64,000 nucleotides of DNA, taken from IMG/VR virus record IMGVR_UViG_3300021962_005968, positions 1 to 64,000 of that record; one strand, given 5' to 3'. Positions 24,273 to 63,944 of this stretch are shown here, piece by piece; within the stretch, counting starts at the first letter, position 1; each line of letters starts with the position of its first letter. The notes under the pieces were generated by a model that made no database searches, was not told the DNA's origin, and was given only the letters and a program-made list of their open reading frames with translations. Made by a program: the position numbers and the translations under genes. The stretch is from a virus.

Positions 24273-24289
24273 CATTATAGGGATTGAAA

Positions 24290-25297: not shown

Positions 25298-25305
25298 GAA
25301 CAAAA

Positions 25306-29529: not shown

Positions 29530-30236
29530 AAATACAAACATTTATCTTTAACTGGTGTGGTCAGTATGAGAAGACAAAAGAAAAGCAAAAGCAACTGAGT
29601 GCCATTGGGGTTGTGCCTGTCGTTATTAATAGTGACGACACTCACCGTGAGGACGATCCTAATTGGCACAACATTGGCGAGGACAGTTACTTTACAGCAC
29701 AATTTTTAAAAGCAATTGAGTTGTTTGATGCGGATGTAATGTTCCACATTCAGGCAGATGCATCATATGATAATTGGACTGAAATTTATGCAGGTGCTGA
29801 AGAATGTTTCGATACTTATAATTGGGGAATATATGCCCCTAATGTAGATTATACATGGTATAATTCTGACAGAACAGACCTCAAATCGTTTGAATTGGAT
29901 GAACCTCATTTTAGAATGGTTGCTAATCCAGATTGCACTTGTTGGTTCATTCATAAAGATATTATAAATGAGGCAAAGAATAGGGGTGTAGATTTTGCAC
30001 CATACCAAATGGGATGGAGTTTTGATATTGTTTATACTGCTTTAGGATATATTAATAAAAGACCAGTTATCCGAGATTACCGATATACTATTGACCATCC
30101 GCCCGGAACCAATTATAATAAGGCTCAAGCTGAAAAAGAGATGTATACGTTATATGCATCTTTGCCTACAGATATTCAGCAAGCATTCAGAAGTATTAAA
30201 CAAGATAAAGAACAATTAGGAAAATATTACGCATGA
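29526..30236 (+). CDS. Putative GT-A glycosyltransferase
   Basis: 236 residues. IQTFIFNWCGQYEKTKEKQKQL begins a nucleotide-binding strand-helix and MFHIQADASYDNW supplies a DxS/DxD-like site near residue 79. PYQMGWSFDIVY follows. Family not certain; overlaps both neighbours by four bases. Confidence 0.55.
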   Translation: MKIQTFIFNWCGQYEKTKEKQKQLSAIGVVPVVINSDDTHREDDPNWHNIGEDSYFTAQFLKAIELFDADVMFHIQADASYDNWTEIYAGAEECFDTYNWGIYAPNVDYTWYNSDRTDLKSFELDEPHFRMVANPDCTCWFIHKDIINEAKNRGVDFAPYQMGWSFDIVYTALGYINKRPVIRDYRYTIDHPPGTNYNKAQAEKEMYTLYASLPTDIQQAFRSIKQDKEQLGKYYA

Positions 30237-31156
30237 CACATAACTTCTTTCAATTAAATGAACTAATAGGTGATTTGCTTAAAGCAAATGAACCGTTTTC
30301 GTTATTGCGTATTGATAATACAATGGGATACGTATTAGATTCTTTGCAGAAAAATACTACTCCTGTTAGAGAATTTTTCAATGAGAATGCTTTAATTGAG
30401 GGTGGCATATATCCTAATAATATGGATTATGCATATGATGTTGTTATACCAAAAACATTAGAAGCAATGACCTATTGCGATATTCTTGGGTTTGTTGACC
30501 TATCAGGTGAAATACAACGTAATACAGAATTTATTAATTTATTTGGTGAGAAGCCTAAGTTCTATGGGCATGATAGTATATTAGTTCTTGATCCATGTGC
30601 ATTGTTAAATGTGGATGGTATTCATGAATTAGAGAATCCTTGGCCTACATATTTGAGGGGTAAAAAGGTATTAGTTGTTTCTACCCATGCGGAAACAATT
30701 AAACATCAATGGAAAAACATAGATAGCATCTGGGGCTGGAATAAACACCGGGTTGTTCCTTTTGAATTGGTGGATGTTATTAAATCCCCATACCATCCTA
30801 TTATGGATCCTAATCAATATCCTGGATGTAATACGTGGGAAGATACTGTTGAATATATAAAAGCAAAGATTGATACATATGACTACGATGTATTAATTGC
30901 AGGATCATCAACGTCTTCTCCTATGTATGCAGAACATGCTAAACAACAAGGCAAAATAGGAATACAAACTGGCGGCGTGCATCAGTTGTTCTTTGGTATT
31001 CTAGGATATCGTTGGTCACCTGAAGCAAACAACGGTTATAGACCTTGGGCAAAATTATACAATGAGCATTGGATGTATCCTATGCAAATAGATGAACCCA
31101 TGAACAGAGACAAATATAACTCTTTAGAAACTAACTACGCATACTGGAAAAAATGA
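30233..31156 (+). CDS. Putative GT-D-like glycosyltransferase / polysaccharide protein
   Basis: 307 residues. LLRIDNTMGYVLDS at 23-37 and, in the C-terminal half, VLIAGSSTSSPMYAEHAKQQGKIGIQTGGV with LFFGILGYRW resemble the DUF1792/GT-D layout (RxGDxE-like start, product-binding loop). The resemblance is weak. It is fully embedded in the sugar operon (ATGA overlaps at both ends). Confidence 0.45.
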   Translation: MTHNFFQLNELIGDLLKANEPFSLLRIDNTMGYVLDSLQKNTTPVREFFNENALIEGGIYPNNMDYAYDVVIPKTLEAMTYCDILGFVDLSGEIQRNTEFINLFGEKPKFYGHDSILVLDPCALLNVDGIHELENPWPTYLRGKKVLVVSTHAETIKHQWKNIDSIWGWNKHRVVPFELVDVIKSPYHPIMDPNQYPGCNTWEDTVEYIKAKIDTYDYDVLIAGSSTSSPMYAEHAKQQGKIGIQTGGVHQLFFGILGYRWSPEANNGYRPWAKLYNEHWMYPMQIDEPMNRDKYNSLETNYAYWKK

Positions 31157-32475
31157 ATAAACAAGATATTATTAAAAGTGTTGCTGAATTTATTCAAGAG
31201 AAAAACAGCAAAAAGACTTGGGTTGCAGGCAAAGACTTCGTTAACTATGCAGGCCCATATTTTGATGAACACGAAATTACGGCGGCAGTCTCTACATTGT
31301 TAGATAGCTGGCTTGTAATGGGTGATCAATCAATAAAATTTGAGAAACAATTTCCTAAGCAATTTCAAAAGAACTTTGGAATTCTTACTAATTCAGGATC
31401 AAGCTCTAATCTATTAATGATGTCTACGCTTACATCTAAGCGGGGATATAACTTGCCTAAAGGTACAAAGGTATTGATGCCTATTGCAGGCTTTCCCACA
31501 ACATTAAATCCTACATTGCAAGTAGGGTTTGAGCCTGTATTTTTAGATATCGAATTAGACACACTTAATTTAGATTTAACTAGAGCAGAAGAATTAATTA
31601 AGAAACATGATATTAAAGTTATTACATTTGCTCACGTGTTAGGCAATCCCCCTAATATGCGTTGGGTAATGGAATTAGTTAATCGGTATGATTTGATTTT
31701 ATTAGAAGATTGTTGCGATGCGTTAGGTTCCACATATGGTGGTCAACCACTAGGATCATTTGGTGAAATGGCATCTTGCTCATTCTATCCTGCGCATCAT
31801 ATGACAATGGGCGAAGGCGGGTTTGTAGCATGTAAGTCGTATGAGACAGAAGTTATCCTTCGTTCATTTAGAGAATGGGGACGCGGTTGTTATTGCGTAG
31901 GACCCGAAGCTAATAAATTAAAATGTGGTTCCTGCGGCAAGAGATTTCAAGAATGGATTCCTGAAATGCCAGGAGAAATTTTTGACCATAAATATGTATA
32001 TGATGAAATTGGTTATAACCTTAAACCCATCGAATTGCAAGGCGCAATGGGTATGGTACAATTAGAAAAATTGGAGACTATTCATGCCCTACGTCGTCGT
32101 AATTATAGTTTGCTTTTTGATATCTACAGCAAGTACGAGGAGTACTTCCATTTACCTAGAGCACAAGAATACTCAGACCCAAGCTGGTTCGCGTTCCCCT
32201 TAACAATTCGTGCAGGGTCTCCGTTTAAGAGAAGCGACATTGTAGACTATCTCGAGGATAAATTAATTCAGACAAGACCTTATTTTGCTGGCAATATTAT
32301 GTTACAGCCTGCATATTCACATTTGATGAATCCCGCAGAAGCACGAGATAATTTCCCTGTTGCTACAATGACAATGACTAATACTTATTTCCATGGTACA
32401 AGTCCTGTTATTACTCCTGAGCAAATTAAATATATCGGCGAAATAGTAGATAGTTTTATGAGTCTGTTTAGATAG
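31153..32475 (+). CDS. rfbH: RfbH/E1-like CDP-4-keto-6-deoxyglucose 3-dehydrase
   Basis: 440 residues. The Lys-to-His exchange is in FYPAHHMTMGEGG (His215). A Cys set (CYC... and CGSCGKRF around 255-277) corresponds to the iron-sulfur ligands of the E1-type enzymes that remove O3 of CDP-4-keto-6-deoxyglucose together with an E3 reductase. KYVYDEIGYNLKPIELQGAMG is also E1-like. No E3 reductase or CDP-glucose 4,6-dehydratase is obvious, so host enzymes or another NDP-sugar are needed. Confidence 0.85.
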   Translation: MNKQDIIKSVAEFIQEKNSKKTWVAGKDFVNYAGPYFDEHEITAAVSTLLDSWLVMGDQSIKFEKQFPKQFQKNFGILTNSGSSSNLLMMSTLTSKRGYNLPKGTKVLMPIAGFPTTLNPTLQVGFEPVFLDIELDTLNLDLTRAEELIKKHDIKVITFAHVLGNPPNMRWVMELVNRYDLILLEDCCDALGSTYGGQPLGSFGEMASCSFYPAHHMTMGEGGFVACKSYETEVILRSFREWGRGCYCVGPEANKLKCGSCGKRFQEWIPEMPGEIFDHKYVYDEIGYNLKPIELQGAMGMVQLEKLETIHALRRRNYSLLFDIYSKYEEYFHLPRAQEYSDPSWFAFPLTIRAGSPFKRSDIVDYLEDKLIQTRPYFAGNIMLQPAYSHLMNPAEARDNFPVATMTMTNTYFHGTSPVITPEQIKYIGEIVDSFMSLFR

Positions 32476-32540
32476 TAAATATATGGGAAATAAATTCATG
32501 CGCCATTTCGGTGCTTAATTTTTAATTAAAGGAAAATAAA

Positions 32541-33350
32541 ATGAACTTAAAAGAACGACAAATGCTAGATATACTCAAAAAGGGTAAAAATGAATTTGGT
32601 TATGTTGCAGTTAAAGCTGAATTTGAAGCAGAAGGTACTAGAGTAGATGAGCTATTACGTTTAATAGAATTGGCTCGTCGAGCAAATCTTAAAATTGCAC
32701 TTAAGGTTGGCGGTTGTGAGGCTATGACGGATCTAATGATAGCTAAGCAAATCGGGGTTGATTATGTAATTGGGCCTATGATTGAGACTCCATATGCTTT
32801 ATGGAAATTTATTGATGCAAAAAATAAAGTCTTTAACAAGGAAGAACAGGAAAGCACAGAATTCTTATATAACTTAGAAACACACACCGGTTATATCAAT
32901 CGTGAAGGTATGAGCAAGCAGGCCACGGTCGAGGGGGGTGTTAACGGGGTAGTGTTTGGTCGCGTAGATTTTAGCATGAGCCGCCGAGAAGAAGGCTGGG
33001 ACCGTGATGATATTAATCTGCCTAAGGTCACTGAATGTGTTTTAGACGTAGCACAGATTGCCAAGGATGCAGGTCAAGCTATTGTTGTGGGTGGCGGCAT
33101 AAGTTCAGATAGTATTGATGTGCTGAAACAAATTCGGCAAATACATCTAACACGCTTTGAGACCCGTAAGATTGTGTTTGATGGATCTGCTACTGAAGTC
33201 ACTGATCTTGCACAGGGATTAGTAAACGGTATTCACTTTGAACTTCTGTGGTTGCAAAACAAACGCGATTACTATGGCTCAATCTTTACTGAGGATGACA
33301 AGCGTATCAAGATGTTAGATGACCGTTGGAAAATTTTGGCCGCACAATGA
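32541..33350 (+). CDS. HpcH/HpaI-type aldolase/lyase
   Basis: 269 residues. TIM-barrel signs: LKIALKVGGCEAMTD, GVDYVIGPMIETPYALWKF, FGRVDFSMSRREEGW, and IVVGGGISSDS. The family adds or removes pyruvate-type or acetyl units. AAGGAAA ribosome site. Coupled by four bases to an SDR, then a dehydroquinate-synthase-like gene and a ThDP enzyme, which suggests one pathway. Product not known. Confidence 0.7.
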   Translation: MNLKERQMLDILKKGKNEFGYVAVKAEFEAEGTRVDELLRLIELARRANLKIALKVGGCEAMTDLMIAKQIGVDYVIGPMIETPYALWKFIDAKNKVFNKEEQESTEFLYNLETHTGYINREGMSKQATVEGGVNGVVFGRVDFSMSRREEGWDRDDINLPKVTECVLDVAQIAKDAGQAIVVGGGISSDSIDVLKQIRQIHLTRFETRKIVFDGSATEVTDLAQGLVNGIHFELLWLQNKRDYYGSIFTEDDKRIKMLDDRWKILAAQ

Positions 33351-34039
33351 AAGTTCTTGTAACTGGCGCTACTCGGGGAATAGGTAAAAGTATTGCAAGT
33401 TTATTCCACCTCCAGGGACATAAAGTTATTGGTACGGGTACACCGGGTACTGCTAAACCCGATTATTTAGATTATTATTTTGAGGCAAATTTTACTAAAA
33501 AGGATCAAGTAGAGTCGTTAGCAAGTATAATTAACGATTTGCAAATTGATGCGTTAGTTAATAATGCAGGTATTAATCGTATTAAACCTTTTCTTGAAAT
33601 TACGCCCGACGATTGGAACGATCAACATATGGTTAATGTATATGCGCCATATAGATTCTGCCAAGCAGCATTACCTCATATGATTGAAAATGGGGGACAT
33701 ATTGTAAATATTGCTAGCGTATGGAGTAAAATAAGTAAATCGGGAAGAGCGGCATATAGTGCAAATAAATTTGCATTAGAGGGCATGACCAAATCCTTAG
33801 CTGCAGAATTTAGTTCTCATAATATACGTATTAACTGCGTTAGTCCAGGTTTTATAGATACTGATCTTACGAGAAAAAATTTGGGAGAGGCAGGCATTAA
33901 AAAAATACTAGAGAGAGTTCCTATTAATAGGTTAGGACATACTGCTGATATTTCGGAATATGTATATTGGCTGTGTACTCAAAATAGTTATATCACTGGG
34001 CAAAATATTGTAATTGACGGGGGATTTACCTGTGCTTGA
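33347..34039 (+). CDS. Short-chain dehydrogenase/reductase
   Basis: 230 residues from ATG 33347. TGATRGIGKS (NAD(P)), NNAG, catalytic Ser region VNIASVWSK and YSANK (YxxxK), then PGFIDTDL: a complete classical FabG-like SDR. Probably reduces a keto intermediate of the surrounding pathway. Confidence 0.88.
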   Translation: MKVLVTGATRGIGKSIASLFHLQGHKVIGTGTPGTAKPDYLDYYFEANFTKKDQVESLASIINDLQIDALVNNAGINRIKPFLEITPDDWNDQHMVNVYAPYRFCQAALPHMIENGGHIVNIASVWSKISKSGRAAYSANKFALEGMTKSLAAEFSSHNIRINCVSPGFIDTDLTRKNLGEAGIKKILERVPINRLGHTADISEYVYWLCTQNSYITGQNIVIDGGFTCA

Positions 34040-35039
34040 TTTTGAAGTAAAAAGTAAATTTGGTAATTATAACGTAGAATTTTGTAGTATAAATACTATC
34101 AATATTGCTAAAATTGGCACTCACTTTATTATTGACAAAACTGTAGTAGACTATTATAATATAAACTTTAATAATGCTATTATTATTAATGCAAACGAAT
34201 CCGAAAAAAGCTATCAGGCGGCGGATAGTATTATAGATAATTTGGTTAAAATGAATATGCGAAGAGATAGTCATTTGATTGCAATAGGTGGGGGTATTAC
34301 CCAGGATATAACTTGTTGGATTGCCTCAACTTTTATGAGAGGGATACCCTGGAGTTTTGTCCCAACTACTTTACTTGCGCAAACGGATAGTTGTATTGGT
34401 AGTAAAAGTTCAATTAATTTTAATCAATATAAAAATCTGTTAGGTACATTTAATCCTCCAAGAAATGTTTACATTGATAATAAGTTTCGTAATACATTGG
34501 AAAATCGAGATATAAAAAGCGGATTGTCGGAATTAATTAAACTTATGATAATTAATAATTGCGATAAAAAAGAAATTTTTAAAGTAGCATCCTCTAGACC
34601 AGTTACAGATGAGCATATAGCTAAAGCATTACTCATCAAAAAATATTTTATTGAGACAGATGAATTTGATAAAGGTATTCGTAATTTATTAAATTACGGA
34701 CATTGTTTTGGGCATGCAATAGAAAGTGCTAGTAACTATGATATACCGCACGGCATAGCTGTTGCAATGGGAATGGATTTAGCAAATGCATTAACTAATA
34801 AAGAGTGGTATGATAAATACCATAACATCTTATATATTCTATATGCAGAATTTTTAGATATTTTAAATAATATAGAATTAGATAAAGTATTTGAAGCTAT
34901 GAATAAAGACAAAAAGAATATTGGTGGTAAATTAAGTATTATTGCCCCAACTAATTTTGGTTTAGAAAAACAACAATTTATAAATGATTTTAAGTTTAGA
35001 ACGAAATGCATTGATATATTTAAAATGCTAAAGGATTAA
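34032..35039 (+). CDS. 3-dehydroquinate-synthase-like sugar phosphate cyclase
   Basis: 335 residues from GTG 34032, which has a strong GGGGGA site; a TTG at 34014 is less likely. IAIGGGITQD, VPTTLLAQTDSCIGSK, GLSELIKLM with E167, LNYGHCFGHAIE with H224 and IPHG with H240 reproduce the DHQ synthase metal ligands with the same 16-residue His spacing as in AroB. The glycine-rich 'GGK' step reads GSK. No shikimate genes are near, so a cyclitol or other cyclisation product (valiolone-, aminoDHQ-type) is plausible. Confidence 0.8.
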   Translation: MLDFEVKSKFGNYNVEFCSINTINIAKIGTHFIIDKTVVDYYNINFNNAIIINANESEKSYQAADSIIDNLVKMNMRRDSHLIAIGGGITQDITCWIASTFMRGIPWSFVPTTLLAQTDSCIGSKSSINFNQYKNLLGTFNPPRNVYIDNKFRNTLENRDIKSGLSELIKLMIINNCDKKEIFKVASSRPVTDEHIAKALLIKKYFIETDEFDKGIRNLLNYGHCFGHAIESASNYDIPHGIAVAMGMDLANALTNKEWYDKYHNILYILYAEFLDILNNIELDKVFEAMNKDKKNIGGKLSIIAPTNFGLEKQQFINDFKFRTKCIDIFKMLKD

Positions 35040-35041
35040 AA

Positions 35042-36820
35042 ATGCGAGTATGTGATTATATTGCTAAAAAGTTAAATGATATAGGTGTAACTAAAGTATA
35101 TGGGTTAGTTGGCGGAAGTACTGCCGGTCTAAATGATGGATTTATCAGCAATCCACATATTGACTACATTGCATTTCACCACGAACAAGGTGCAGGCCAT
35201 GCTGCAGTAGGATCTGCGAGAACTAATAAGCAACTTAGTGTTTGTAATGTTACTGCAGGCTGCGGTGTAACTAATGCAATGACTAGTTTGTTAAATGCTT
35301 ATGAGGAAAGTGCTCCTGTATTATTCTTAAGTGGAAATACCGGCATGTCTAATCAGGCAAAGTACATTAATAAGGAAAAAGGAATACATCTTCGTAAATA
35401 TGGTATTCAAGATCTCGATGCTATTAAAACGGTTGAGGGAATTTGTAAATATTCTATAGCTATAGAAAATGCTAAAGATATACCATATGAATTAACCAAA
35501 GCCATACATATTGCACAAGACGGGCGCCCAGGACCAGTGTGGATTGATGTTCCGGGAAATATACAGACTGCGCAAATTCCAGAAGGTTGCGAAGAATACG
35601 TTGAGGATAAAATAGACCACGCATCCAAACACATCGATGGCGCGCTGGATGCTTTACAAGTTTTATTTAAATCTGAACGCCCTGTTATTGTGGCAGGCAA
35701 TGGAATTGCCCTGGGCAATGCTAGAGAATTGTTTAGAAATATTGTTGACAAATATAATATTCCTTTTGTTACGACATTTCTTTCTAGGGATTTAATTGAA
35801 TATGAACATGATCAGAATTTAGGAATGATGGGCATCAAAGGTGCACGCTCTGCAAATTTTGCATTACAAAATGCAGACTGTTTGCTTATTTTAGGTTGTT
35901 CAATGAACGTAACACATATAGGGTATGATTCAAAAACCTTTAGTCCGTATAGTACAAAAATCATGGTTGATATTGATCCTAGTGAACTTAAAAAAGATAT
36001 CTTTAAAGTTGATAACGCAATTAACTGTAACGTATACGATTTTCTATATACAATGCAACTTAACCCGAGCGATTATAAATTAAACACTTGGACCAATAAA
36101 TGTTTGTATTGGAAAAATAAATGGCCACTATATCAACCAGAAGTTCATCGTCCAGATATAGGGGGATTAAATCTATATGAAATTGTAGAAAGTATTAATC
36201 GTAACATGGAACCGAAGGATTGTTTTGTTGTAGACGCAGGGCAACCATGTTATATACTTTCTACTAACGGTAAGTATAAAAAAGACTGCCGTTATATGGC
36301 TCAATCTGCCCAGGGTGATATGGGGTATGCTTTGCCCGCGAGTGTCGGGGTTCACTTTGCGGATCCTAGTCTAAATATTGTTTTAGTTATTGGAGAAGGT
36401 AGTTTTTATACTAATATGCAGGAACTTGCTGTAATCAGACAACATAATATTCCTATTAAGATTTTTGTTATTAATAACGATGGTTATATGAGTATTAAAC
36501 AAACACAAAATAAAATGTTCGGCGGACGTCAATGGGGAGTTAGTAATTCAACCGGCGTATATTTTGCAGATATTTCTAAGATTGCAGATGCATTTGAAAT
36601 TCCTTATTTTAAAATAACTAATAATCAAAGTTTAGACACATACATGTCGAGTGTTATGCGCGGAAATAATCCTGTTATTGTTGAGTTTATGAGTCAGCAC
36701 GAACTAGACGTACAGCCAGCACAGGCAATGAAACCAAATGGGAAACAGGGTGGTCTACATGAAATGAGTCCTTTCTTAAGTCAGGAAGAGCTTGACGCAG
36801 AGATGATTGTTAAGATATGA
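35042..36820 (+). CDS. ThDP-dependent enzyme (acetolactate-synthase-like)
   Basis: 592 residues with the three ThDP domains: catalytic HHEQGAGHAA (E48), central domain with SERPVIVAGNGIALGNA, and the C-terminal cofactor site GEGS (451-454) ... INNDGY. GEG replaces the usual GDG, so the metal ligand is Glu. C-C bond making enzymes of this type create branched-chain sugars (YerE-like) or cyclic products. Overlaps the next gene by four bases. Confidence 0.85.
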   Translation: MRVCDYIAKKLNDIGVTKVYGLVGGSTAGLNDGFISNPHIDYIAFHHEQGAGHAAVGSARTNKQLSVCNVTAGCGVTNAMTSLLNAYEESAPVLFLSGNTGMSNQAKYINKEKGIHLRKYGIQDLDAIKTVEGICKYSIAIENAKDIPYELTKAIHIAQDGRPGPVWIDVPGNIQTAQIPEGCEEYVEDKIDHASKHIDGALDALQVLFKSERPVIVAGNGIALGNARELFRNIVDKYNIPFVTTFLSRDLIEYEHDQNLGMMGIKGARSANFALQNADCLLILGCSMNVTHIGYDSKTFSPYSTKIMVDIDPSELKKDIFKVDNAINCNVYDFLYTMQLNPSDYKLNTWTNKCLYWKNKWPLYQPEVHRPDIGGLNLYEIVESINRNMEPKDCFVVDAGQPCYILSTNGKYKKDCRYMAQSAQGDMGYALPASVGVHFADPSLNIVLVIGEGSFYTNMQELAVIRQHNIPIKIFVINNDGYMSIKQTQNKMFGGRQWGVSNSTGVYFADISKIADAFEIPYFKITNNQSLDTYMSSVMRGNNPVIVEFMSQHELDVQPAQAMKPNGKQGGLHEMSPFLSQEELDAEMIVKI

Positions 36821-37605
36821 GAATAGCCGTTTTAGGTGCAAAGGGTTTTGTTGGGCGAAACCTTGCGAGACATTTAATAAGCAATCACCATGTGACTCCT
36901 GTAACCAGGGACATATTAGATATGCTTAATCCTAATGCGGTTACAATGTTTTTAAAAGAAGGACACTTTGATGTAGTTATCAATTGTGCGGCAATTATGA
37001 CTAATGACGAGTTATTAAATGATGCTAGAAATAACCTAAGTATCTTTATGAACTTCTATAATAATAGAGAATTATTTGGTAAATTTATTAATACTGCGTC
37101 GGGCGCGGAGTTTGATAGGTCCACAAATATTGATTGTGCAATAGAATCGGATATTTTTAATCATATGCCTAAAGACAGTTACGGTTGGGGGCAAAATATA
37201 AAAGCAAGATTGTCTGCAAAAACTGATAATTTTTATAATATTCGTATCTTTAATTGTTTTGGATATGGCGAATTAGAAACAAGATTGTTTTCACGATTTC
37301 TAAAACAAAGATATCTAGAAATTAGTAACGATAGATATTTTGATTATTTTAGTATAAATGATTTATGTAAAGTAGTTGATTATTATATAAAGCAAACATT
37401 GCCAATCAGTGATGTTAATGCTGTTTATGAAAATAAAATTAAAATTAGTGAGGCATTAGAACTGTTTTGCAAAGTTTGTAACATAGAACCAACCTTCAAA
37501 GTTATCAGTACTAGTTTTAATAACTACACTGGGAGTAGTTCGAGGTTAAAAACTTTGGGAATTGAACTGGATGGTTTAGAAAAAGGGTTTGAGGATTATA
37601 TATGA
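36817..37605 (+). CDS. Sugar-nucleotide reductase (RmlD-like extended SDR)
   Basis: 262 residues. NAD motif LGAKGFVGRNLARHL and NCAAIM. Where YxxxK is expected the sequence is SYGWGQNIKAR, so the active-site Lys is not at the standard spacing. It may be an inactive or redesigned reductase, or the Lys three residues later serves. Next gene overlaps by four bases. Confidence 0.65.
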   Translation: MRIAVLGAKGFVGRNLARHLISNHHVTPVTRDILDMLNPNAVTMFLKEGHFDVVINCAAIMTNDELLNDARNNLSIFMNFYNNRELFGKFINTASGAEFDRSTNIDCAIESDIFNHMPKDSYGWGQNIKARLSAKTDNFYNIRIFNCFGYGELETRLFSRFLKQRYLEISNDRYFDYFSINDLCKVVDYYIKQTLPISDVNAVYENKIKISEALELFCKVCNIEPTFKVISTSFNNYTGSSSRLKTLGIELDGLEKGFEDYI

Positions 37606-38549
37606 AAATACTTTATGTTACAGGGTGTTTAGGGTTTATAGGTTATCATGTAACTAAAAAATTCTTAGATAAAGGCCACTATGTTTATGGTATAGATAGT
37701 AAAACGTATGCTAGTAATAAAGACTTCCTTTATAAATTACTAGAATATAAAAATTTTACATTTGGCGGGTGCGATATAAACGATATCGACCGCTTGGTTG
37801 ACTGTGACTACTTTATTAATACTGCCGCAGAGACACATGTGGACAATAGTATTGTCAGCTCAGATGTTTTTCTGCGTAGCAACATCAACGGAGTTCATAA
37901 GATATTAGAACTCATCAAACAAAAACCAAAATCAAGAAGACCGACATTACTACACTTCAGTACCGATGAAGTGTATGGCGATATTGTAGATGGTTTTCAT
38001 ACTGAAACAGATTTACTAAAACCAAGCAATCCCTATTCGGCAACAAAAGCAGCAGCTGATATGTTGGTAAGTGCCTGGGCAAGAACATATGACGTTCCCT
38101 ATGTTATTGTTAGACCAACTAATAATTATGGTATAGGTCAATATGTTGAGAAGTTCATTCCTAAAGCAATAAAGAATTTGTCTTTAGGTCGACCTATTAT
38201 AATGCACGATAATGGGTCCCCGAAGAGAACTTGGTTGCACGTGTCCGATACAGCAAACGCAGTATTGACAATTATTGAATCAGGTGTTGTAAACGAGACC
38301 TATAATATTTCAGGCAACTATGAAGAACAAAATATTGTTGTTGCTAAGCATTTAATAGATTTGTTCTCCAATTATACTGTTACAACCTATCTGAAATATA
38401 TGGATTTTTCAGAGAAACGTATAGGTCAAGATGTTAGATATGCTATAGATGATTCGAAACTAAAAGCATTAGGATGGAAACCTGAAGCAGACTTTGGTAA
38501 AGAATTAATTGAGATTGTTAAGTATTATAAAGAAAATTTCATATGGTAA
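37602..38549 (+). CDS. dTDP-glucose 4,6-dehydratase-like (RmlB family)
   Basis: 315 residues. TGCLGFIGYHVTKKFL, FINTAAETHVDNSI, STDEVYGD with the DE pair of 4,6-dehydratases, and NPYSATKAAADML (YxxxK). RTWLHVSDTANAV also matches RmlB. Makes a 4-keto-6-deoxy sugar nucleotide; the substrate nucleotide cannot be read off. Shares the last bases with the next gene. Confidence 0.85.
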   Translation: MKILYVTGCLGFIGYHVTKKFLDKGHYVYGIDSKTYASNKDFLYKLLEYKNFTFGGCDINDIDRLVDCDYFINTAAETHVDNSIVSSDVFLRSNINGVHKILELIKQKPKSRRPTLLHFSTDEVYGDIVDGFHTETDLLKPSNPYSATKAAADMLVSAWARTYDVPYVIVRPTNNYGIGQYVEKFIPKAIKNLSLGRPIIMHDNGSPKRTWLHVSDTANAVLTIIESGVVNETYNISGNYEEQNIVVAKHLIDLFSNYTVTTYLKYMDFSEKRIGQDVRYAIDDSKLKALGWKPEADFGKELIEIVKYYKENFIW

Positions 38550-39244
38550 AGAAGATTATATCATTAAGCGTTTGGGGCAATGATTCTAGATATATTACAG
38601 GCGCAAATCGACAATATGCTTTGGCAAAACAGTTCTATCCTGATTGGGAATTTAGAATTTACACAGATGACAAAAACAAATTCGCCAATTTAACAGATGC
38701 CAATATTATAGAAGTGACCGATGGTTCATATGGTATGTACTGGCGATTCCGAGCAATGTTTGAAGATGAAAACAATATTGTAATTGTTCGAGATTCTGAT
38801 AGCAGAATTACTTTCAGAGAACATCGAGCAGTCAATCAATGGTTAGAATCTGATAAGAAGTTTCACACATTCCGAGATCACGAAGCACATTTTGAATTTC
38901 CTATTATCGGATGTGCATTTGGATACAAAGGTAAATTTGGAACACCTATATTAAATTTAATGAATTCTTATACAACAAAATTAAATTATTATGTAGGTGA
39001 TCAAATATTTTTAAAAGAAGTCATTTGGCCGTTAGTTGAAGATAGCGCAATGATCCATTGCATGAAGGATGGATGGTTCAAAGAAACAAGAGCACAATTA
39101 GCCAATCCATACGATTTTTGTGGTAACGGATATGACGAAAATGATATGCCGTTATATCCACCTACACTAGCAGAATGCGCAGGATTTGATCCTAAGAATA
39201 CCCCTAAAGAATTTAAATTTAACAAAGGCATTTTAACACAATGA
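38543..39244 (+). CDS. Putative glycosyltransferase
   Basis: 233 residues. FYPDWEFRIYTDD, GMYWRFRAMF, and IVRDSDSRI (DSD) resemble small GT-A proteins in capsular clusters. Acceptor unknown. Confidence 0.6.
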   Translation: MVKKIISLSVWGNDSRYITGANRQYALAKQFYPDWEFRIYTDDKNKFANLTDANIIEVTDGSYGMYWRFRAMFEDENNIVIVRDSDSRITFREHRAVNQWLESDKKFHTFRDHEAHFEFPIIGCAFGYKGKFGTPILNLMNSYTTKLNYYVGDQIFLKEVIWPLVEDSAMIHCMKDGWFKETRAQLANPYDFCGNGYDENDMPLYPPTLAECAGFDPKNTPKEFKFNKGILTQ

Positions 39245-40035
39245 AAAGCTATTTTATTACTCCCGTATTCAATAAAGAGAATATGATTGGGAAAGTACTT
39301 GAAGGAATCGCGCAATCCGTTGCAGGTGATTATACTGCAATTTTTATTATTGATGGATGCACTGACAACAGCTTAGAAGTTATTAAAAGCTATAACAATC
39401 CAAATGTTATTATATTGCACGCACCGAATGTTCATGAGATTAAAAGTCTAAACATTGGTCTATCCTACATTAGAGATAATTGTAACCCAGACCCAGATGA
39501 CTTAATCTTCACAGTGCAAGATGATGTAATCATCGAAGAAGAAAATATTGATATACTATTTGCTAATTTGTTTGAAGAATATACTGATCTCGGTTATATG
39601 TCTTTTAGACTAGGCATTAGTATGCAGTTAGCAGGCGATGGGATTTCCGAATATAATTTTGCAGAGTCTGAGTTCGGCCATTGGAAACAATTGGGAATGA
39701 ATCATTTTCAAGAAATTAAACACGGTGAATTAGTTGAAGCCGAAGCAGTTATTAGAAGTCCGACCTGTGTACTATGGAAGCGATATCAGGAAATAGGATT
39801 CTATAATGATGATCTTGCACCATGCGGTTACGACTGCCAAGATTTTAGTATTCGTATGAATATGCACGGTTATCGCAATGGAGTGTATGCTTTAAAATAT
39901 AGAAGCGATATTGATTGGGGTTCGACAAGAGAAAAATCTGAAACAGAAGTTAATTCTAAAATAGGACAGATTCAAGAACGTAATAGACAATATTTGGCAA
40001 AAACATATAGAAATTATTTTGAGGGAAAACGATGA
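39241..40035 (+). CDS. GT2-family glycosyltransferase
   Basis: 264 residues. ITPVFNKENMIGKVLEGI, IIDGCTDNS, QDDVII (DD metal site) form a standard GT2 fold; MNMHGYRNGVY near the end. Inverting transfer from a nucleotide sugar expected. Confidence 0.85.
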   Translation: MKSYFITPVFNKENMIGKVLEGIAQSVAGDYTAIFIIDGCTDNSLEVIKSYNNPNVIILHAPNVHEIKSLNIGLSYIRDNCNPDPDDLIFTVQDDVIIEEENIDILFANLFEEYTDLGYMSFRLGISMQLAGDGISEYNFAESEFGHWKQLGMNHFQEIKHGELVEAEAVIRSPTCVLWKRYQEIGFYNDDLAPCGYDCQDFSIRMNMHGYRNGVYALKYRSDIDWGSTREKSETEVNSKIGQIQERNRQYLAKTYRNYFEGKR

Positions 40036-40757
40036 GTAAAGTGACTATTATAACAGCAACAACTGGTTCTGATTATCTTCACGATAATATTAAATCAGTT
40101 CAATTGCAGACACATAAAGATGTTCAACATCTGATTGTGGTTGACGGCGAAGAACATTTTGAAAAGGTTGCTGCTATATTAGCGGAACATGATTTTCCAA
40201 ATATAGATATGGTTGTTCTACCTTACGCTACGGGCAAAGAACAATATAATGGTCATCGAATTTATGGCGGGTTTACACATATTGCCAAAGGCGACTACAT
40301 TGGTTACCTTGATGAAGATAACTGGTTAGAGCCAGAACATGTGGAAGTATTACTTGATACTGTAAAAGATAATCAATGGGCAGCAACCTTGCGTAAAATC
40401 GTAGATAATGAAGGTAAGTTCATTTGTAATGATGATTGCGAAAGTCTGTGTAATTGGGAATCGGTTATCCGAGATTATTTTGTAGATGTAAATTGTTTCT
40501 TTTTCTCTAAACCACTTGCACTTCAATTAAGTCCTATTTGGTATAGACGTGCAAGACATCCAGACGATCAACCTGAAGTAGATCGAGCATTGACGTACAC
40601 GCTAAAAGATAATAAAATAGTATGTGAGGTGACGGGAAAGTATACTGTAAACTACAGAGCAGGAAATAGAGCAGATTCGGTTCAAGCTAAATTTTTCCTG
40701 CAAGGCAATGAAATAATGAAACAAAAATATAATGGAGCGCTACCATGGCGGAAATAG
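40032..40757 (+). CDS. GT2-family glycosyltransferase
   Basis: 241 residues. Nucleotide-binding VTIITATTGSDYL at the N-terminus, HLIVVDGEEH, and DxD as LDEDNWLEPEH. Four-base overlap with the previous GT2. Confidence 0.85.
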   Translation: MSKVTIITATTGSDYLHDNIKSVQLQTHKDVQHLIVVDGEEHFEKVAAILAEHDFPNIDMVVLPYATGKEQYNGHRIYGGFTHIAKGDYIGYLDEDNWLEPEHVEVLLDTVKDNQWAATLRKIVDNEGKFICNDDCESLCNWESVIRDYFVDVNCFFFSKPLALQLSPIWYRRARHPDDQPEVDRALTYTLKDNKIVCEVTGKYTVNYRAGNRADSVQAKFFLQGNEIMKQKYNGALPWRK

Positions 40758-41062
40758 ACTACAAATATAATGAAGGTGAGTTAATTAAAGAATTTCAAGA
40801 ATACATTGATGCAACATACGGCCAACATTATTCAATGAATAGATTCCAGGCATCTGAGTTTATTATTGATAATGGACATGGTGTAGGATTTACTGCAGGC
40901 AATGTAATGAAATACGTACAACGATATGGCAAAAAAGCCGGTCGTAACAGACAAGACTTGTTAAAGGTTCTACACTACGCATTGATGTTGTTATATGTGC
41001 ATGATCTTGAAACAGGCAAAGGCAATACTGATAATTTTGAAATCCGTAAGGTAAATAAATGA
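40745..41062 (+). CDS. DUF3310-like protein
   Basis: 105 residues. FIIDNGHGVGFTAGNVMKYVQRYGKKAGRNRQDLLKVLHYALML follows the DUF3310 pattern FxxGNVIKYVxRxGKKxxxxDLxKAxHY, a short protein widespread in phages without proven function. It is wedged between sugar genes with overlaps at both ends. Confidence 0.75.
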   Translation: MAEIDYKYNEGELIKEFQEYIDATYGQHYSMNRFQASEFIIDNGHGVGFTAGNVMKYVQRYGKKAGRNRQDLLKVLHYALMLLYVHDLETGKGNTDNFEIRKVNK

Positions 41063-41934
41063 GTACTATTCTTCTAGGTTCAAGCGGGTTTCTAGGCCCA
41101 CAAATATTAGAAAAATATCCTGATATTGTTTCTGTTGGTCGCACAAAACCCGCAACAGGCATGAAACACGTGGATTGCCCTACATTAGAACATCTACCTG
41201 AAGTTCTAGACAAATTAGATTTTGATAAAGTGATTATGATGATTGGTAGTTCTAATCATACAGAATTAAATTGTCAGAATATGTTAGCGATTGAAAAAAA
41301 TGTAATTCCTTTGAAAAAGGTATTTGCATATTTCAAGAATAGACCAATTAAAAAGCTATTAAGTTTTAGTTCTATTCTTTTATATGATCGCAGTAAAATG
41401 ACTTTGCCGGTTGACGAATCTCAACCATTAAGTACTTATCAGAATGAATACATTTTCAGTAAGTTCTTAGGCGAAGAAGTAGCAAAATTTTATTCTGATG
41501 TGCCCAACATCATTGTGAGATTAACAAACATTTACGGACCAACCACTGCATTGAATCGACCAGATTTGGTAAATCAATTAGTCGAAGGTTTAGTCATTCG
41601 TAAAAAAGCACGAGTATTAAATTTAAGACCACAGCGAGATTTTATTTATACTGCAGATGCTTCTGACGCAATTGTAAAATTATTGGATACTGATTATACA
41701 GGTCCCGTTAATGTTGCAACGGGTCAAATGCACTCCGTGGGTGACGTTGTTAGAATTTTAGAAAAACTTTCTGGAATTAAAATTGAAATAGGTGACGGTC
41801 CAGCAACTGGACATATGCAATTTGTTTCGGACAACACATTGATTAAGAAATTAATTAACTGGGAACCGAAATACAATTTGGAAGAAGGTCTAACGGAGAC
41901 CTATGAAAAAATGATGGCTATGTATGGGAAATAG
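41059..41934 (+). CDS. NAD-dependent epimerase/dehydratase
   Basis: 291 residues. LLGSSGFLGPQIL (degenerate GxxGxxG), SFSSILLYD, YIFSKFLGEE (YxxxK as YIFSK), and RDFIYTADASDAI. A sugar-nucleotide SDR closing the operon. Next gene belongs to a different transcript. Confidence 0.8.
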   Translation: MSTILLGSSGFLGPQILEKYPDIVSVGRTKPATGMKHVDCPTLEHLPEVLDKLDFDKVIMMIGSSNHTELNCQNMLAIEKNVIPLKKVFAYFKNRPIKKLLSFSSILLYDRSKMTLPVDESQPLSTYQNEYIFSKFLGEEVAKFYSDVPNIIVRLTNIYGPTTALNRPDLVNQLVEGLVIRKKARVLNLRPQRDFIYTADASDAIVKLLDTDYTGPVNVATGQMHSVGDVVRILEKLSGIKIEIGDGPATGHMQFVSDNTLIKKLINWEPKYNLEEGLTETYEKMMAMYGK

Positions 41935-51336: not shown

Positions 51337-53274
51337 TCATTCTCCTAGTTTGTATTGTCGATTAACCATTTCTTGATGGAGTCTATCGCTTCCCAATCCT
51401 CTTAATAGTCTAACATTATCTGTAACCGTTTGATTTTTATAAATTTCCTTTGGTGCATAAAATGCAACATCTGGCATCATAAAGAAATATTGTGAATAAT
51501 TTGCAGGTTGTTTTGCAATTGATTCTATTGTTATATTCCCCGCCAATTCATTATTGTTCACATTTCTTACAACAGTGTTATTTTGCTGAGAGTTATCATT
51601 TGTGGAAGGCATAAAGGGTTTTGCATCTATTGCATTGTCAACTACACTTTTATTTCCAAATTTTATACCTTCATTCGAGGGCATATCAATTTGTATTTGC
51701 GGAGTATAACGTATTGGTGCGTTTAAATTATACGATAATGTTGGCGATGCTATTGATACAGTTAATTCTTGTCTTATAACCGGAGGTTGATATTGCACAG
51801 AATTCACTGTAGGTTGAGTATAAAAAGACTCTACCTTAGGAGGTTCATATTTAGGAGTAGGTAAACTAAATTGACCTACATTTACATTATCTTGTTTTGT
51901 AGCAGAAGGTGTGTTTTGTTGACTGTTACCAAAAGAATTAGAAGTCTGTTGACCCGCTGAACTACTTGCCATTGATTGCTCTAATCTGGTAGTATTAACT
52001 ACAGTATTAGATTGTAGATTGCCTTGTAATGCTAAAGCACCACTTTGCATTGGATTTGAGAATGATTGAGCAGATCCGGGTTGTACTACACTTGTTGCTT
52101 GAGAACTATTAGCTGCAGCACTTTGCGACTGTGCATCTCCTGCAATTTTTTCTGCTTGTTGTTTAGCAGTTTCCCCTGCGGAAAATGCTTGTGCATCCGC
52201 GGCCTGCACTACAGACTTTTCTAACGCCGCAGTCTTTTCTTGATTTGCCCCAATCATACTAAGAACCGAAGATAAAGATACTGTTGATTTAGAACCACCT
52301 GAAGAATCTGACACCTCACCGGCTTTAGTTTGTTGGCCACCCGGTGCTGGTTGTGTAGATGCAACTTGGGGTGCTGGACCTGATGGAGGAGGAGGTTGCG
52401 AACCTTGTGGTGGAGGACTTCCAGGAGGAGGTTGCGAACCTTGTGGTGGTGGAGGACTTCCAGGAGGAGGTGCAATTCCAGTTGTCGTAATTGTAACATT
52501 ATCAATCGTAGTTTGAACTCCCATTAGTGTTGGTTCTGTAACTATTGTAGTTGTTAATGTTTGTGGAGTCAATTTAGCAAGTGCCTCAAAATAACCAGGA
52601 CACGTTGGGCTACTCAATACATTACCAGCACATGGGTCTACAGAATACTTCAGACTGAAATTTACATTGTAAATTTCAGGACCATACGGACCTGCCCAAA
52701 AGTTATTGTCTCTTCCCACAAAACCATATTGAACACTACCCAAATCTTTAGATGCAAAAGGACTATTGAATGTTTCAGAATAATTGAAGGTAGTCCAGTT
52801 AAATCTAGAATTCAAATCATAATTTTTATTGAATACAGTAGAACCTTTTGGATCATAGAAACTGACATATGCAGTAAGATAGTCCAGTCTACCATCATCC
52901 CACCCATTTCCATTCTTAGCAGTAAATCCAAAATTATATCCATCTACTCTAAGTCCTGTTCCTGTATTTGAAAGAACATTTGCAATTGTTTGCATCTGAT
53001 AAAGATTAGTCATACCATATGAAAAGTTAATGCTATCACCAGGTCGAACGATTGGATTTGGTCCACAGTAACCTGGATCGCCATATCCCCAACAAGTGAG
53101 ATTGTTCTGATAGACACCATTTACCCAAGGCGTAGGTCCACCTTGGGGAGTTGTCTGGACAATATTCCCTGTACTGTATACTTGTCCAGCTTCTAGTGTT
53201 TGCGCTTTACTTAAAAGCGGCGTGAACAAGAATGCCGAGCAAAGAGCCAACGCCAATGTTTTTAGCAGTTTCAT
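51337..53274 (-). CDS. Secreted multi-domain protein with Pro-rich repeat
   Basis: 645 residues from the ATG at 53274; an upstream in-frame extension to 53379 would lack a signal. Signal peptide MKLLKTLALALCSAFLFTPL (cleavage after SKAQ). Residues 30-210 form a beta-rich domain with CWGYGDPGYCGP; residues about 275-310 are Pro/Gly/Ser/Gln repeats; the rest is Gln/Ser/Asn-rich. Could be a secreted adhesin or virion decoration; no homologue known to me. Its N-terminus overlaps the C-terminus of the upstream gene by 68 bases. Confidence 0.6.
   Translation of the reverse strand: MKLLKTLALALCSAFLFTPLLSKAQTLEAGQVYSTGNIVQTTPQGGPTPWVNGVYQNNLTCWGYGDPGYCGPNPIVRPGDSINFSYGMTNLYQMQTIANVLSNTGTGLRVDGYNFGFTAKNGNGWDDGRLDYLTAYVSFYDPKGSTVFNKNYDLNSRFNWTTFNYSETFNSPFASKDLGSVQYGFVGRDNNFWAGPYGPEIYNVNFSLKYSVDPCAGNVLSSPTCPGYFEALAKLTPQTLTTTIVTEPTLMGVQTTIDNVTITTTGIAPPPGSPPPPQGSQPPPGSPPPQGSQPPPPSGPAPQVASTQPAPGGQQTKAGEVSDSSGGSKSTVSLSSVLSMIGANQEKTAALEKSVVQAADAQAFSAGETAKQQAEKIAGDAQSQSAAANSSQATSVVQPGSAQSFSNPMQSGALALQGNLQSNTVVNTTRLEQSMASSSAGQQTSNSFGNSQQNTPSATKQDNVNVGQFSLPTPKYEPPKVESFYTQPTVNSVQYQPPVIRQELTVSIASPTLSYNLNAPIRYTPQIQIDMPSNEGIKFGNKSVVDNAIDAKPFMPSTNDNSQQNNTVVRNVNNNELAGNITIESIAKQPANYSQYFFMMPDVAFYAPKEIYKNQTVTDNVRLLRGLGSDRLHQEMVNRQYKLGE
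52385..52475. repeat. Pro-rich coding repeat
   Basis: Near-identical tandem units encoding PPPGSPPP-QGSQ, two copies on the minus strand. Likely a flexible linker and a spot for slippage. Confidence 0.75.
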
Positions 53275-54577
53275 ATTTGTCTTCTTTAGGTGTTTGTGGG
53301 ATTTTATCTTTATTATCTTCCCATGCAAGTTTAGCTTGTTCGCCAATTTTACCTTCAATAGGACAAGGGGTGCCTGCATTTAACATTGCTCTAAACACTC
53401 GATCGTCCTGACACATGACTGCTACTGCAGCAACTTTCATTCCCATATCATAAAGGGTTTTAGAAAGTTTTAATCTTTCACAATTTAAATCTCTTATTGT
53501 TCCGCCAGATGAAACACCAAATACTTGTGTTTGAACTGAACCAGATGATCCCGTACTACATAAATCATTGTTACCTCCACTCATCATTGCTGGAGCAACG
53601 GCTGTCGGCGGGGGTTGAATTACTTTCTGCGTAATAGTAGTTTCATTAATATTCCTATTTGTCATATCACCAGAATTAATGTTTTGATTTATATTGGCAT
53701 TTTGATTAACGTTTGTATTATTGCTAGTACTTGTTGATGTGTTAATATTACGATTTGTCATATCACCAGTATTGACATTATTATTCTGATTTGTAGACGT
53801 ACTTACATTATTATTTTGATTTGTAGATGTACTTACATTATTATTGTTGTAAGTCATTGTACCAGTATTTTCGTTTTTGTTAACATTAGTAGATGTACTA
53901 ACACTATTGTTATTGTTATTAAACGTCTGAGTACCGCTATTTACATTGTAGTTTGTATTGGTATTTGATGATGTGGATGTATTAATATTACGATTCGTCA
54001 TATCACCAGTGTTCACATTGTTGTTTGTATTAACGTTCGTACTGGTGCTTGCATTAGTGTTTTGATTAACATTCGTTAGCGTACCGCTTTGAATATTATT
54101 GTTAGTGTTAACATTATTGTTTGAGCTGGTGCTCGTATTGACGTTATTATTATTGTTCGTCATTGTACCAGAATTAACGTTGTTATTATTGTACGTCATT
54201 GTACCAGAATTAACGTTGTTATTATTAAACGTCTGCGTACCGCTATTTATGTTATTATTTGTATTAACATTGGTACTTGTGCTAGTACTTGCGTTGTTGT
54301 TATTGTTAGTATTTGTAGATGTACTATTTACTGTTGAATTGCTTGTAGCAGTTGATGTGCTTGTAGCAGTACTGTTACTATTTACTGTGCTAACACTATT
54401 TGAAGTGCTATTTGTGTCTACTAACGTTTTGCTGTCGTAAGTTCCTTGATTTATGAGACTTGTAGTCCCCGTTGTCGTTCCCCCTGTTGTACTAGAGGTT
54501 CCACTTGTAGTTTGCGCTAAAGTGCTACCAAACATCATAACAAAAAGTGCCAGTGCGGCCGCCTTTTTGTTGAACAT
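53207..54577 (-). CDS. Secreted Asn/Thr-rich repeat protein
   Basis: 456 residues. Signal peptide MFNKKAAALALFVMMFGSTLAQ. Residues 60-310 are repeats of units such as NVNSGTMTYNNN and NVNTGDMTNRN, which may form a beta-solenoid or amyloid-like stack. The C-terminal ~100 residues are globular with four or more Cys (LNCERLKLS, MCQDDR, GTPCPIE). First gene of the minus-strand operon. Possible exported curli-like or surface fibre. Confidence 0.65.
   Translation of the reverse strand: MFNKKAAALALFVMMFGSTLAQTTSGTSSTTGGTTTGTTSLINQGTYDSKTLVDTNSTSNSVSTVNSNSTATSTSTATSNSTVNSTSTNTNNNNNASTSTSTNVNTNNNINSGTQTFNNNNVNSGTMTYNNNNVNSGTMTNNNNNVNTSTSSNNNVNTNNNIQSGTLTNVNQNTNASTSTNVNTNNNVNTGDMTNRNINTSTSSNTNTNYNVNSGTQTFNNNNNSVSTSTNVNKNENTGTMTYNNNNVSTSTNQNNNVSTSTNQNNNVNTGDMTNRNINTSTSTSNNTNVNQNANINQNINSGDMTNRNINETTITQKVIQPPPTAVAPAMMSGGNNDLCSTGSSGSVQTQVFGVSSGGTIRDLNCERLKLSKTLYDMGMKVAAVAVMCQDDRVFRAMLNAGTPCPIEGKIGEQAKLAWEDNKDKIPQTPKEDKYETAKNIGVGSLLGILVHAAFK
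53640..54440. repeat. Asn-rich coding repeat array
   Basis: Tandem degenerate 12-45-base units built of GTTATT/ATTATT blocks encode the Asn/Thr/Ser array of the gene above. The mirrored plus-strand open frame (54099-54440, all Leu/Val) is an artefact. Confidence 0.85.
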
Positions 54578-62505: not shown

Positions 62506-62919
62506 ATGAGTACATTCACAGTAGTCGGCGTTTCCACACAGTATGGCGTCACAAAAGTTCGTTTTGCTAATGACTTGGCATCACGCGTTAAACTCTTGTC
62601 TAAGGGTGGTCACTCACCTCTTGAGTTAATTGAGTTGCCTAAGGCAATGACCAAAGCAGAAGCATGCCAACATCTTCTTGATGTAGGCGGTATCTTCAAA
62701 CAATGGGCACCTCTCATTACTGAGACAATGGGAAAGAAACAAGGTACAGTTATTAGCAAGCCAGTCAAGGTAAAAGCTAAAGCAGCACCAGTAAAGACAA
62801 AGGCAGTTGCTCCTAAGAAAGTAGCAGCACCTAAAGTAGTCAAGGCAAAGGTTGTTGATGATGACCTCGAACTTGAAGAATTGAAGCAATTGGCTGAGTT
62901 GGAAGACGCGCCAATGTAA
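62506..62919 (+). CDS. Protein with basic Ala/Lys/Pro-rich tail
   Basis: 137 residues. N-terminal 75 residues are globular (FTVVGVSTQYGVTKVRFAND, KAEACQHLLDVGGIF). Residues 80-118 are a histone H1-like Lys/Ala/Pro/Val stretch (VKVKAKAAPVKTKAVAPKKV), followed by an acidic end. DNA binding by the tail is plausible. Function not known. Confidence 0.6.
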   Translation: MSTFTVVGVSTQYGVTKVRFANDLASRVKLLSKGGHSPLELIELPKAMTKAEACQHLLDVGGIFKQWAPLITETMGKKQGTVISKPVKVKAKAAPVKTKAVAPKKVAAPKVVKAKVVDDDLELEELKQLAELEDAPM

Positions 62920-63169: not shown

Positions 63170-63198
63170 TTGACAAGGGTATTAAAAGATGTTATAAT
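63170..63198 (+). promoter_or_regulatory. Sigma70-like promoter of the tRNA array
   Basis: TTGACA, 17-bp spacer, TATAAT, about 59 bases before tRNA-Ile. Confidence 0.85.
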
Positions 63199-63256: not shown

Positions 63257-63330
63257 ATCCGGTTAGCTCAATAGTAGAGCACTCGACTGATAATCGAAAG
63301 ACAGAGGAGCGTTACCTCTACTGGATACCA
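63257..63330 (+). tRNA. tRNA-Ile(GAT), irregular
   Basis: 74 bases with CCA encoded. Acceptor ATCCGGT/ACTGGAT, U8, D stem GCTC/GAGC, anticodon GAT at 63289-63291. Irregular points: C82/A98 mismatch at the top of the anticodon stem and a T loop reading AGCGTTA instead of TTCRANN. It may be weakly active or degrading. Confidence 0.8.
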
Positions 63331-63333
63331 ATT

Positions 63334-63409
63334 GTCCCGTTCGTCTAGAGGCCTAGGACATTACCCTTTCACGGTAAGTACACCAGTTCGAATCTGGTAC
63401 GGGACGCCA
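63334..63409 (+). tRNA. tRNA-Glu(TTC)
   Basis: 76 bases. Acceptor GTCCCGT/ACGGGAC, G73, CCA; anticodon stem TTACC/GGTAA with TTC at 63368-63370; T loop TTCGAAT. Regular. Confidence 0.95.
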
Positions 63410-63528
63410 TTAATTTGTGATCTGCAGGCTCAGAGGCACAGATCATGCGTTATGTAAGCATAACAATAAACAGTAATCGATCGTAAAGCTGTTGAGTTAG
63501 CTAGATAGTGCAGATCACAAATTAATGG
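63407..63528 (+). ncRNA. Structured non-coding RNA between tRNA-Glu and tRNA-Cys
   Basis: The whole interval is closed by a perfect 19-bp inverted repeat, CCATTAATTTGTGATCTGC (63407-63425) and its reverse complement (63510-63528). Inside, GTTATG/CATAAC (about 63454-63469) forms a hairpin and AACAG / CTGTT another, plus CTCA/TGAG closing. The left arm starts with the tRNA-Glu CCA and the right arm ends 4 bases before tRNA-Cys. TGATCTG can alternatively pair with an inner CAGATCA. No ORF or tRNA fold. Stable RNAs in T4's tRNA cluster are a known parallel. Confidence 0.75.
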
Positions 63529-63532
63529 TTAC

Positions 63533-63610
63533 GCCTGGGTGGCAGAGTGGTCAAATGCAACGGATTGCAAATCCGTAAGATCGTCAGTTCGAATCTGACC
63601 CCAGGTTCCA
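63533..63610 (+). tRNA. tRNA-Cys(GCA)
   Basis: 78 bases. Acceptor GCCTGGG/CCCAGGT, U73 (usual for Cys), encoded CCA; anticodon GCA at 63567-63569 in loop TTGCAAA; T loop TTCGAAT. Confidence 0.92.
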
Positions 63611-63620
63611 AAAATAATGC

Positions 63621-63649
63621 TTGACACAAGTGTGTTAAGGTGTTATAAT
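63621..63649 (+). promoter_or_regulatory. Sigma70-like promoter
   Basis: TTGACA, 17-bp spacer, TATAAT, feeding the next RNA segment and tRNA-Asp. Confidence 0.85.
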
Positions 63650-63655
63650 AAGACA

Positions 63656-63868
63656 TATTAAAAGAATCCCGTTACTATTTTCGTTAAAATAGCGTTTGAT
63701 TAGCGATAGAGATCCGGTGGCAGAAAACCGTTAGCGTGAGGATTAAAAATACCCTCGCAGGCTCTGATAGGCAGAATCTCACTGCACACAGACTTTGAAT
63801 AAATGAGATGGACAGAGTAACCGCTCAATTAAGGGCTCGCCTGGAAACGAGTAGCTTATCTATATTTT
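63656..63868 (+). ncRNA. Structured non-coding segment before tRNA-Asp
   Basis: About 210 bases lacking an ORF. Hairpins: CTATTTT/AAAATAG with CGTT loop (63675-63692), CGGT/ACCG (near 63714), GAGG/CCTC flanking ATTAAAAATA, and CTCG/CGAG extended by AAG/CTT (about 63830-63860). GAGAT/ATCTC could close the middle part. It is not tRNA-like. Confidence 0.5.
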
Positions 63869-63944
63869 GGTCTGTTAGTGTTAGCGGTAAGCACGCGAGC
63901 CTGTCACGCTTGTAGGAGGGATTCGAATTCCCTACAGACCGCCA
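63869..63944 (+). tRNA. tRNA-Asp(GTC)
   Basis: 76 bases. Acceptor GGTCTGT/ACAGACC, G73, CCA; anticodon GTC at 63903-63905 in loop CTGTCAC; T loop TTCGAAT. Regular Asp identity elements. Confidence 0.95.

Follow-up and report, generated by a model that had tools for sequence, protein, structure and literature searches.

What occupies the gap between two tRNA genes in a viral tRNA array, when that gap is spanned almost entirely by one inverted repeat? The array in question lies at the end of the 64,000-nucleotide stretch analysed here (the window), positions 1 to 64,000 of IMG/VR virus record IMGVR_UViG_3300021962_005968. It includes tRNA-Ile(GAT) at 63257-63330, tRNA-Glu(TTC) at 63334-63409 and tRNA-Cys(GCA) at 63533-63610, all on the plus strand, and tRNA-Asp(GTC) at 63869-63944; the parent record (64,490 bases) continues with tRNA-Leu(TAG) and tRNA-Ala(TGC). 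A sigma-70-type promoter, TTGACA-17-TATAAT, is found at 63170-63198 of the plus strand (3170-3198 of locus L005, from the same record). It matches 12 of 12 hexamer positions and has TG before the second hexamer, being a consensus match only, and we infer that it is the start of a predicted transcript of tRNA-Ile, tRNA-Glu, the element in the gap and tRNA-Cys.

The first-pass annotation of this DNA described a perfect 19-bp stem that fills the gap between the two tRNAs exactly. The inverted repeat is real and perfect (CCATTAATTTGTGATCTGCA / TGCAGATCACAAATTAATGG, 63407-63426 and 63509-63528), and it ranks first of the 21 inverted repeats reported for the window, but it comprises 20 bp. As annotated, it begins at the CCA of tRNA-Glu, the encoded CCA (63407-63409) being the first three bases of its left arm. 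It nearly fills the gap, with four nucleotides (TTAC) remaining between the right arm and tRNA-Cys. The RNA of the whole element (63407-63528, plus strand, 122 nt) folds at -44.7 kcal/mol, compared with -23.05 ± 3.31 kcal/mol for shuffled sequences (z = -6.5; none of 200 as good), and a near-identical copy is present in a second contig, L004. The alternative pairing TGATCTG/CAGATCA, previously read as a sign of selection for structure, can be found in the letters of the window phage and L004 and in none of the other members examined; confined in this way, it gives no evidence of selection.

The element belongs to a family, here called W. Three further elements resembling the window interior were used to build a search pattern, GTAANNNNNNNNATAAACRGTAN{9,18}YYGTTGAG, which matched at least 119 uncultured viral contigs or stretches. 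The matches listed yielded 91 distinct copies that have a closing stem, giving a family of about 122 nt. These copies are related, so that the following counts do not represent independent events: 88 of the 91 lie on a strand with tRNAs, 64 have a tRNA within 40 nt downstream, and 26 directly follow a tRNA, which is tRNA-Glu in 16 cases. The CCA is fully paired in 17 of these 26 tRNA-abutting copies and is not paired as a whole in the other nine; CCA pairing in W is therefore a tendency.

Two subtypes were aligned, A (the window element and 17 relatives, 18 sequences) and B (21 sequences). The 37 pairs of subtype A are kept in 98.6% of cells, and 20 of them have changes on both sides; the covariation score is 0.450, against 0.151 for shuffled alignments (none of 500 as high), and pairing falls to 31-44% when partners are slid by 1-3 columns. 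Subtype B has 38 pairs kept in 96.8% of cells, 21 pairs with double changes and a covariation score of 0.303 versus 0.120 shuffled (0 of 500). Because the structures were derived from the same alignments, the paired percentages lean towards them; the double changes are independent of this. The first-pass annotation had proposed a previously undescribed non-coding RNA within the tRNA array and had tied this proposal to covariation, which we looked for and found to be strongly present, in support of the proposal.

The structure consists of four helices, given here with their positions on the plus strand of the window. P1 is formed by the two arms of the inverted repeat, and 16 of its 21 helix pairs are doubly changed in the 18-member subset. 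P2 has its 5' arm at 63431-63437, a loop containing GATC at 63438-63446 and its 3' arm at 63447-63454; in subtype A its six pairs are paired in 100% of cells, with double changes at two. P3 was placed from its outer and inner pairs and by inspection of the alignment, and joins GC(A)TAAC (63458-63464), which has a bulged A in the window member, to GTTAGC (63496-63501). P4 pairs AACAGT (63469-63474) with GCTGTT (63488-63493), for which relatives have ACAG/CTGT, ACGG/CCGT and TGCG/CGCA. Several pairs of P2-P4 are invariant in subtype A, so that support for these helices comes mainly from subtype B. Family W is defined by a P1 of at least 18 bp closing a core of about 80 nt with P2, P3 and P4 in order, and the window element has all of these. 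The interior is more conserved in sequence than P1, and its conserved single-stranded stretches, GUAAC, AUAAAC and AAAUAGUG, are candidate binding sites.

The main feature of the element, which the first-pass annotation missed along with its membership in a large class, is the self-complementary apical loop of P4. In the window this loop contains CGATCG (63478-63483, plus strand), the proposed kissing site of a homodimer. All 33 distinct loops carry a perfect palindrome of 6-12 nt in a fixed place, with a mean length of 7.8 versus 4.1 in shuffled loops, and a hexamer palindrome is expected by chance at 0.247 per shuffled loop. Symmetry is conserved and sequence is not, as the central hexamer takes 11 forms: CGATCG, CTCGAG, CACGTG, CATATG, CGGCCG, TGGCCA, CAGCTG, CTGCAG, TTGCAA, TAGCTA and TCTAGA. 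In subtype A, pairing of the hexamer columns is complete (100% of cells) and includes 15 double changes (0 of 500 shuffles); it extends to the two adjacent middle bases, which are unable to pair within one chain. The palindromic centre is left unexplained by a hairpin and can be explained by pairing between two copies, the signature of a homodimeric kissing loop; two W copies can probably stick together through their tip loops. Palindrome switching has likewise been used as an argument for the kissing loops of OLE and GOLLD (PMC12286853). The P2 loop is also often palindromic (GATC, TGATCA, ACGT, GCGC; mean 4.3 versus 3.0), which is only suggestive of further self-pairing. An excess of palindromic loops was sought in the other cargo families described below and was found in none of them, W alone having it.

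The closing stem recurs around other interiors. The protein encoded just upstream (62506-62919), for which no isolate relatives were found, was used to fetch 80 related viral loci. Nearly every relative with a Glu-Cys gap has a hairpin there that runs from CCA to TGG, around interiors that are unrelated, and the gap measures 35-39 nt (bare hairpin), 112-150 nt or up to 235 nt. With a score of at least 28 and a 3' arm ending in TGG required, a CCA-anchored stem follows 189 of 2,266 distinct tRNA 3' ends and none when the downstream sequence is shuffled; many of these loci were fetched by stem sequence, and the frequency is biased accordingly. A smaller survey with no TGG requirement found 44 of 148 gaps significant at 0.01, most stems beginning on CCA. 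When CCA was not required, 69 of 112 elements had CCA/TGG as their three outermost pairs, and the others mostly had compensated pairs there (CTA/TGG, CTT/AAG, TTA/TAA, GCA/TGC). Pairing of the tRNA discriminator base (73) with the base after UGG was rejected, since that base is mostly U whatever the discriminator.

The common stem pattern, CCATATTGAA...TTCAATATGG, matched at least 119 viral stretches; in 257 Gb of bacterial and archaeal genomes it gave 19 matches, none with an extended stem, which corresponds to chance background. Among 99 oriented viral examples, pairing is at least 93% as far as base pair 17 and then falls to 78, 54 and 35%, the stem length of the class being tightly kept at 17-20 bp. 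Stem positions 11-17, which are not fixed by the search, were scored on the tRNA-sense strand in 50 examples oriented by tRNA alone. They hold 68 G.U and one A.C combination (p about 2e-19), which shows selection on the RNA of that strand; the corresponding count for elements with other stem sequences is 98 versus 39. At blastn sensitivity the 266 distinct interiors form 173 groups, of which 129 have a single member, and W is one of these about 170 unrelated cargo groups that share a stem design in the arrays examined. The window's own record carries a second stem-clamped element just beyond the window, in the Leu-Ala gap (CCATATTGAAACA.../...TGTTTCAATATGG, L005 4323-4419). The TGG of its 3' arm overlaps tRNA-Ala at the first two G, so that this stem competes with the tRNA-Ala acceptor stem. 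Two cargos elsewhere, L129 6802-6901 and L088 8768-8868 (minus strand), are tRNA-like, with D-arm-, anticodon-arm- and T-arm-like parts and a long stem in place of the acceptor stem; the anticodon-like loop of L088 is without the usual U33.

Could the stem, as the first-pass annotation suggested in the alternative, be a processing hairpin and nothing else, with P1 as a site at which RNase III or a similar enzyme separates the tRNAs and the interior as filler? The length of P1 would allow RNase III cleavage, the narrow range of stem lengths would suit such a site, and in relatives the Glu-Cys and Leu-Ala gaps contain bare hairpins, 33-39 nt long and nearly devoid of cargo. Filler, however, would not be conserved above P1, would not covary in P2-P4 and would not maintain a palindromic loop, and we consider this reading unlikely. 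A phage RNase III was rejected as the processor, as its domain is found in none of the 25 carrier or relative records; RNase III would have to be the host's. A phage RNA ligase, as a partner sealing a dumbbell, was also rejected, being present in only six of the 25 records.

Another reading takes the RNAs of the class as imitations of tRNAs that soak up host nucleases or defence effectors attacking tRNA. Phages are known to resist tRNA-cleaving defences by means of their own tRNAs (PMC13096335), a T-arm-like hairpin occurs in 19 of the 266 class members against 0.45 expected, and by inspection a few members also have D-arm- and anticodon-arm-like parts. W itself has no T-arm motif, 63410-63532 contains no match to a tRNA model, and most cargos are not tRNA-like, which makes a decoy role improbable here.

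A DNA-level element, in which a mobile element has its ends or sites in the repeat and palindromes, or a protein binds there, appears very unlikely. Cargo families do recur after different tRNAs, in L269 the W interior is carried by the generic stem found with other cargos, and a palindromic loop could in principle act in DNA. The excess of G.U over A.C, however, is predicted by RNA pairing and not by DNA repeats, W is mostly present in a single copy per genome, and the palindrome is conserved in its symmetry alone. The chance that the repeat is a coincidence or an assembly artefact is negligible, as the same element recurs in L004 and in the 91 family copies, and the family with its covariation already refutes it.

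The favoured reading is an RNA gene. It is likely, judging from sequence conservation and covariation, that 63407-63528 is a W non-coding RNA gene of uncultured T4-like phages, co-transcribed with tRNAs, whose product folds into P1-P4 with a palindromic P4 loop and is probably a stable, self-associating RNA. Comparison of the copies shows that P1, as part of the precursor, reaches into the upstream tRNA to include its CCA, in most cases where a tRNA abuts, and stops beside the following tRNA. RNase P, acting at tRNA-Cys, and host 3' processing of tRNA-Glu would free W from the tRNAs, and P1 would protect its ends. Two copies would then join by their P4 loops into a kissing homodimer, or perhaps a larger assembly if the P2 loop also self-pairs. 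During infection, such an RNA would probably bind a partner from the host or the phage. Our best guess, held with low confidence, is that it serves as a self-associating scaffold or sponge.

The same kind of stem on about 170 unrelated cargos in related arrays suggests that these arrays act as cassettes for phage RNAs. As a tentative wider proposal, uncultured T4-like phages may possess an RNA cassette system in which a CCA-started stem of 17-20 bp carries well over 100 unrelated cargos that would be released with the tRNAs, W being a cargo that self-assembles and may recognise its own kind. If this is true, the sequence of the kissing loop drifts while its symmetry is kept, and the RNA of each phage may recognise only its own kind. 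The self-complementary loop predicts homodimerisation that compensatory loop changes would restore. What had been an isolated hairpin becomes a widespread RNA family with measurable structure, large enough to study the role of extra stable RNAs in phage tRNA clusters, and the tRNA arrays of uncultured T4-like phages appear to hold a large unannotated RNA repertoire in one common frame.

Other gaps of these arrays have features of their own. The 258-nt Cys-Asp gap (63611-63868) contains a perfect promoter of its own (63621-63649, 12/12), and it probably holds another structured RNA of about 210 nt. Many relatives maintain a gap length close to 250 nt here, and a hairpin near the 3' end of the gap shows a compensated C-G to T-A change in L004 (CTCG/CGAG to CTTG/CAAG); the window sequence of this gap, taken alone, folds no better than shuffles. 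The 304-nt Asp-Leu gap just beyond the window (L005 3945-4248) is without a CCA stem, and its 3' end, ATTACCGCCGG(A/G)GGATGCAGAGCA, is found again in other phages, ahead of stem-clamped elements; the gap probably holds another conserved RNA. The Val-Arg (284-298 nt) and Pro-Asn (about 219 nt) gaps of L009-L077 are conserved in length, have no CCA stems and are likely further unannotated RNAs. Elsewhere in the window, 24284-41934 is a long run of genes resembling those of nucleotide-sugar and glycan biosynthesis (epimerases, aminotransferases, glycosyltransferases) in a T4-like phage, and 51337-54577 (minus strand) contains two adjacent long ORFs with low-complexity Asn/Thr/Ser and Pro/Gln repeats, which overlap in different frames.

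The W model detected the family in 13 of 25 large records, with a single copy in each except for one that has two. The window's T4-type capsid protein is matched by 21 of the 25, with 36-85% identity over 19 long matches, and this range of major capsid protein identity among carriers and relatives suggests that W RNA is probably old. A search of Rfam 15 at gathering score gave no match to the window element, a limit relaxed to E = 5 around it gave none either, and the W sites of W-bearing relatives had no significant match up to E = 1. A blastn search of 50,697 phage records with the window element, a subtype-B member and about 30 other cargos returned no match, and no description of W was found in the open-access literature. 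Family W is thus apparently widespread and undescribed, and the class with the shared stem may represent a separate new kind.

The nearest known RNAs by position are T4 RNAs C and D (species 1 and 2; rnaC, rnaD), small stable RNAs without known function that a T4-type phage encodes in its tRNA cluster. The first-pass annotation suggested W as their counterpart, and the resemblance in position holds; descent and a common architecture are not supported. With filters off, the W model has no significant match in the T4 region (best 9 bits, outside rnaC and rnaD; at best 6.5 bits, E 2.7, within rnaC), and as it finds neither RNA we rejected a counterpart by descent. A T-arm-like hairpin is present in rnaC, as in some members of the wider class, whereas no long terminal stem paired with CCA was seen in rnaC or rnaD, nor any evident sequence relation to W.

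GOLLD and ROOL, structured RNAs of phages or prophages that often lie close to tRNA islands and form homo-oligomers through kissing loops and other contacts (PMC12286853), are closest to W in place and in predicted self-association, and W would be their small counterpart in principle. Both exceed W several-fold in size (GOLLD is often longer than 800 nt) and have their own Rfam families, whereas W has about 122 nt and another fold; their Rfam covariance models do not match W, and the oligomerisation of W is only predicted, from its palindromic loop. At the level of the loop, W is predicted to work like the HIV-1 DIS, in which a purine-flanked six-base palindrome in an apical loop joins two identical RNAs (PMC7357161). 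The W apical loop also has a six-base palindrome with flanking purines, but is larger (13-18 nt), and the comparison implies no relation by descent. Finally, the arrays described here share with other tRNA arrays of phages and bacteria whose spacers are structured the arrangement as polycistronic tRNA clusters in phage genomes, and differ in that their spacers follow one stem design, reaching into the tRNA CCA and carrying, among those examined, about 170 different RNA cargos.
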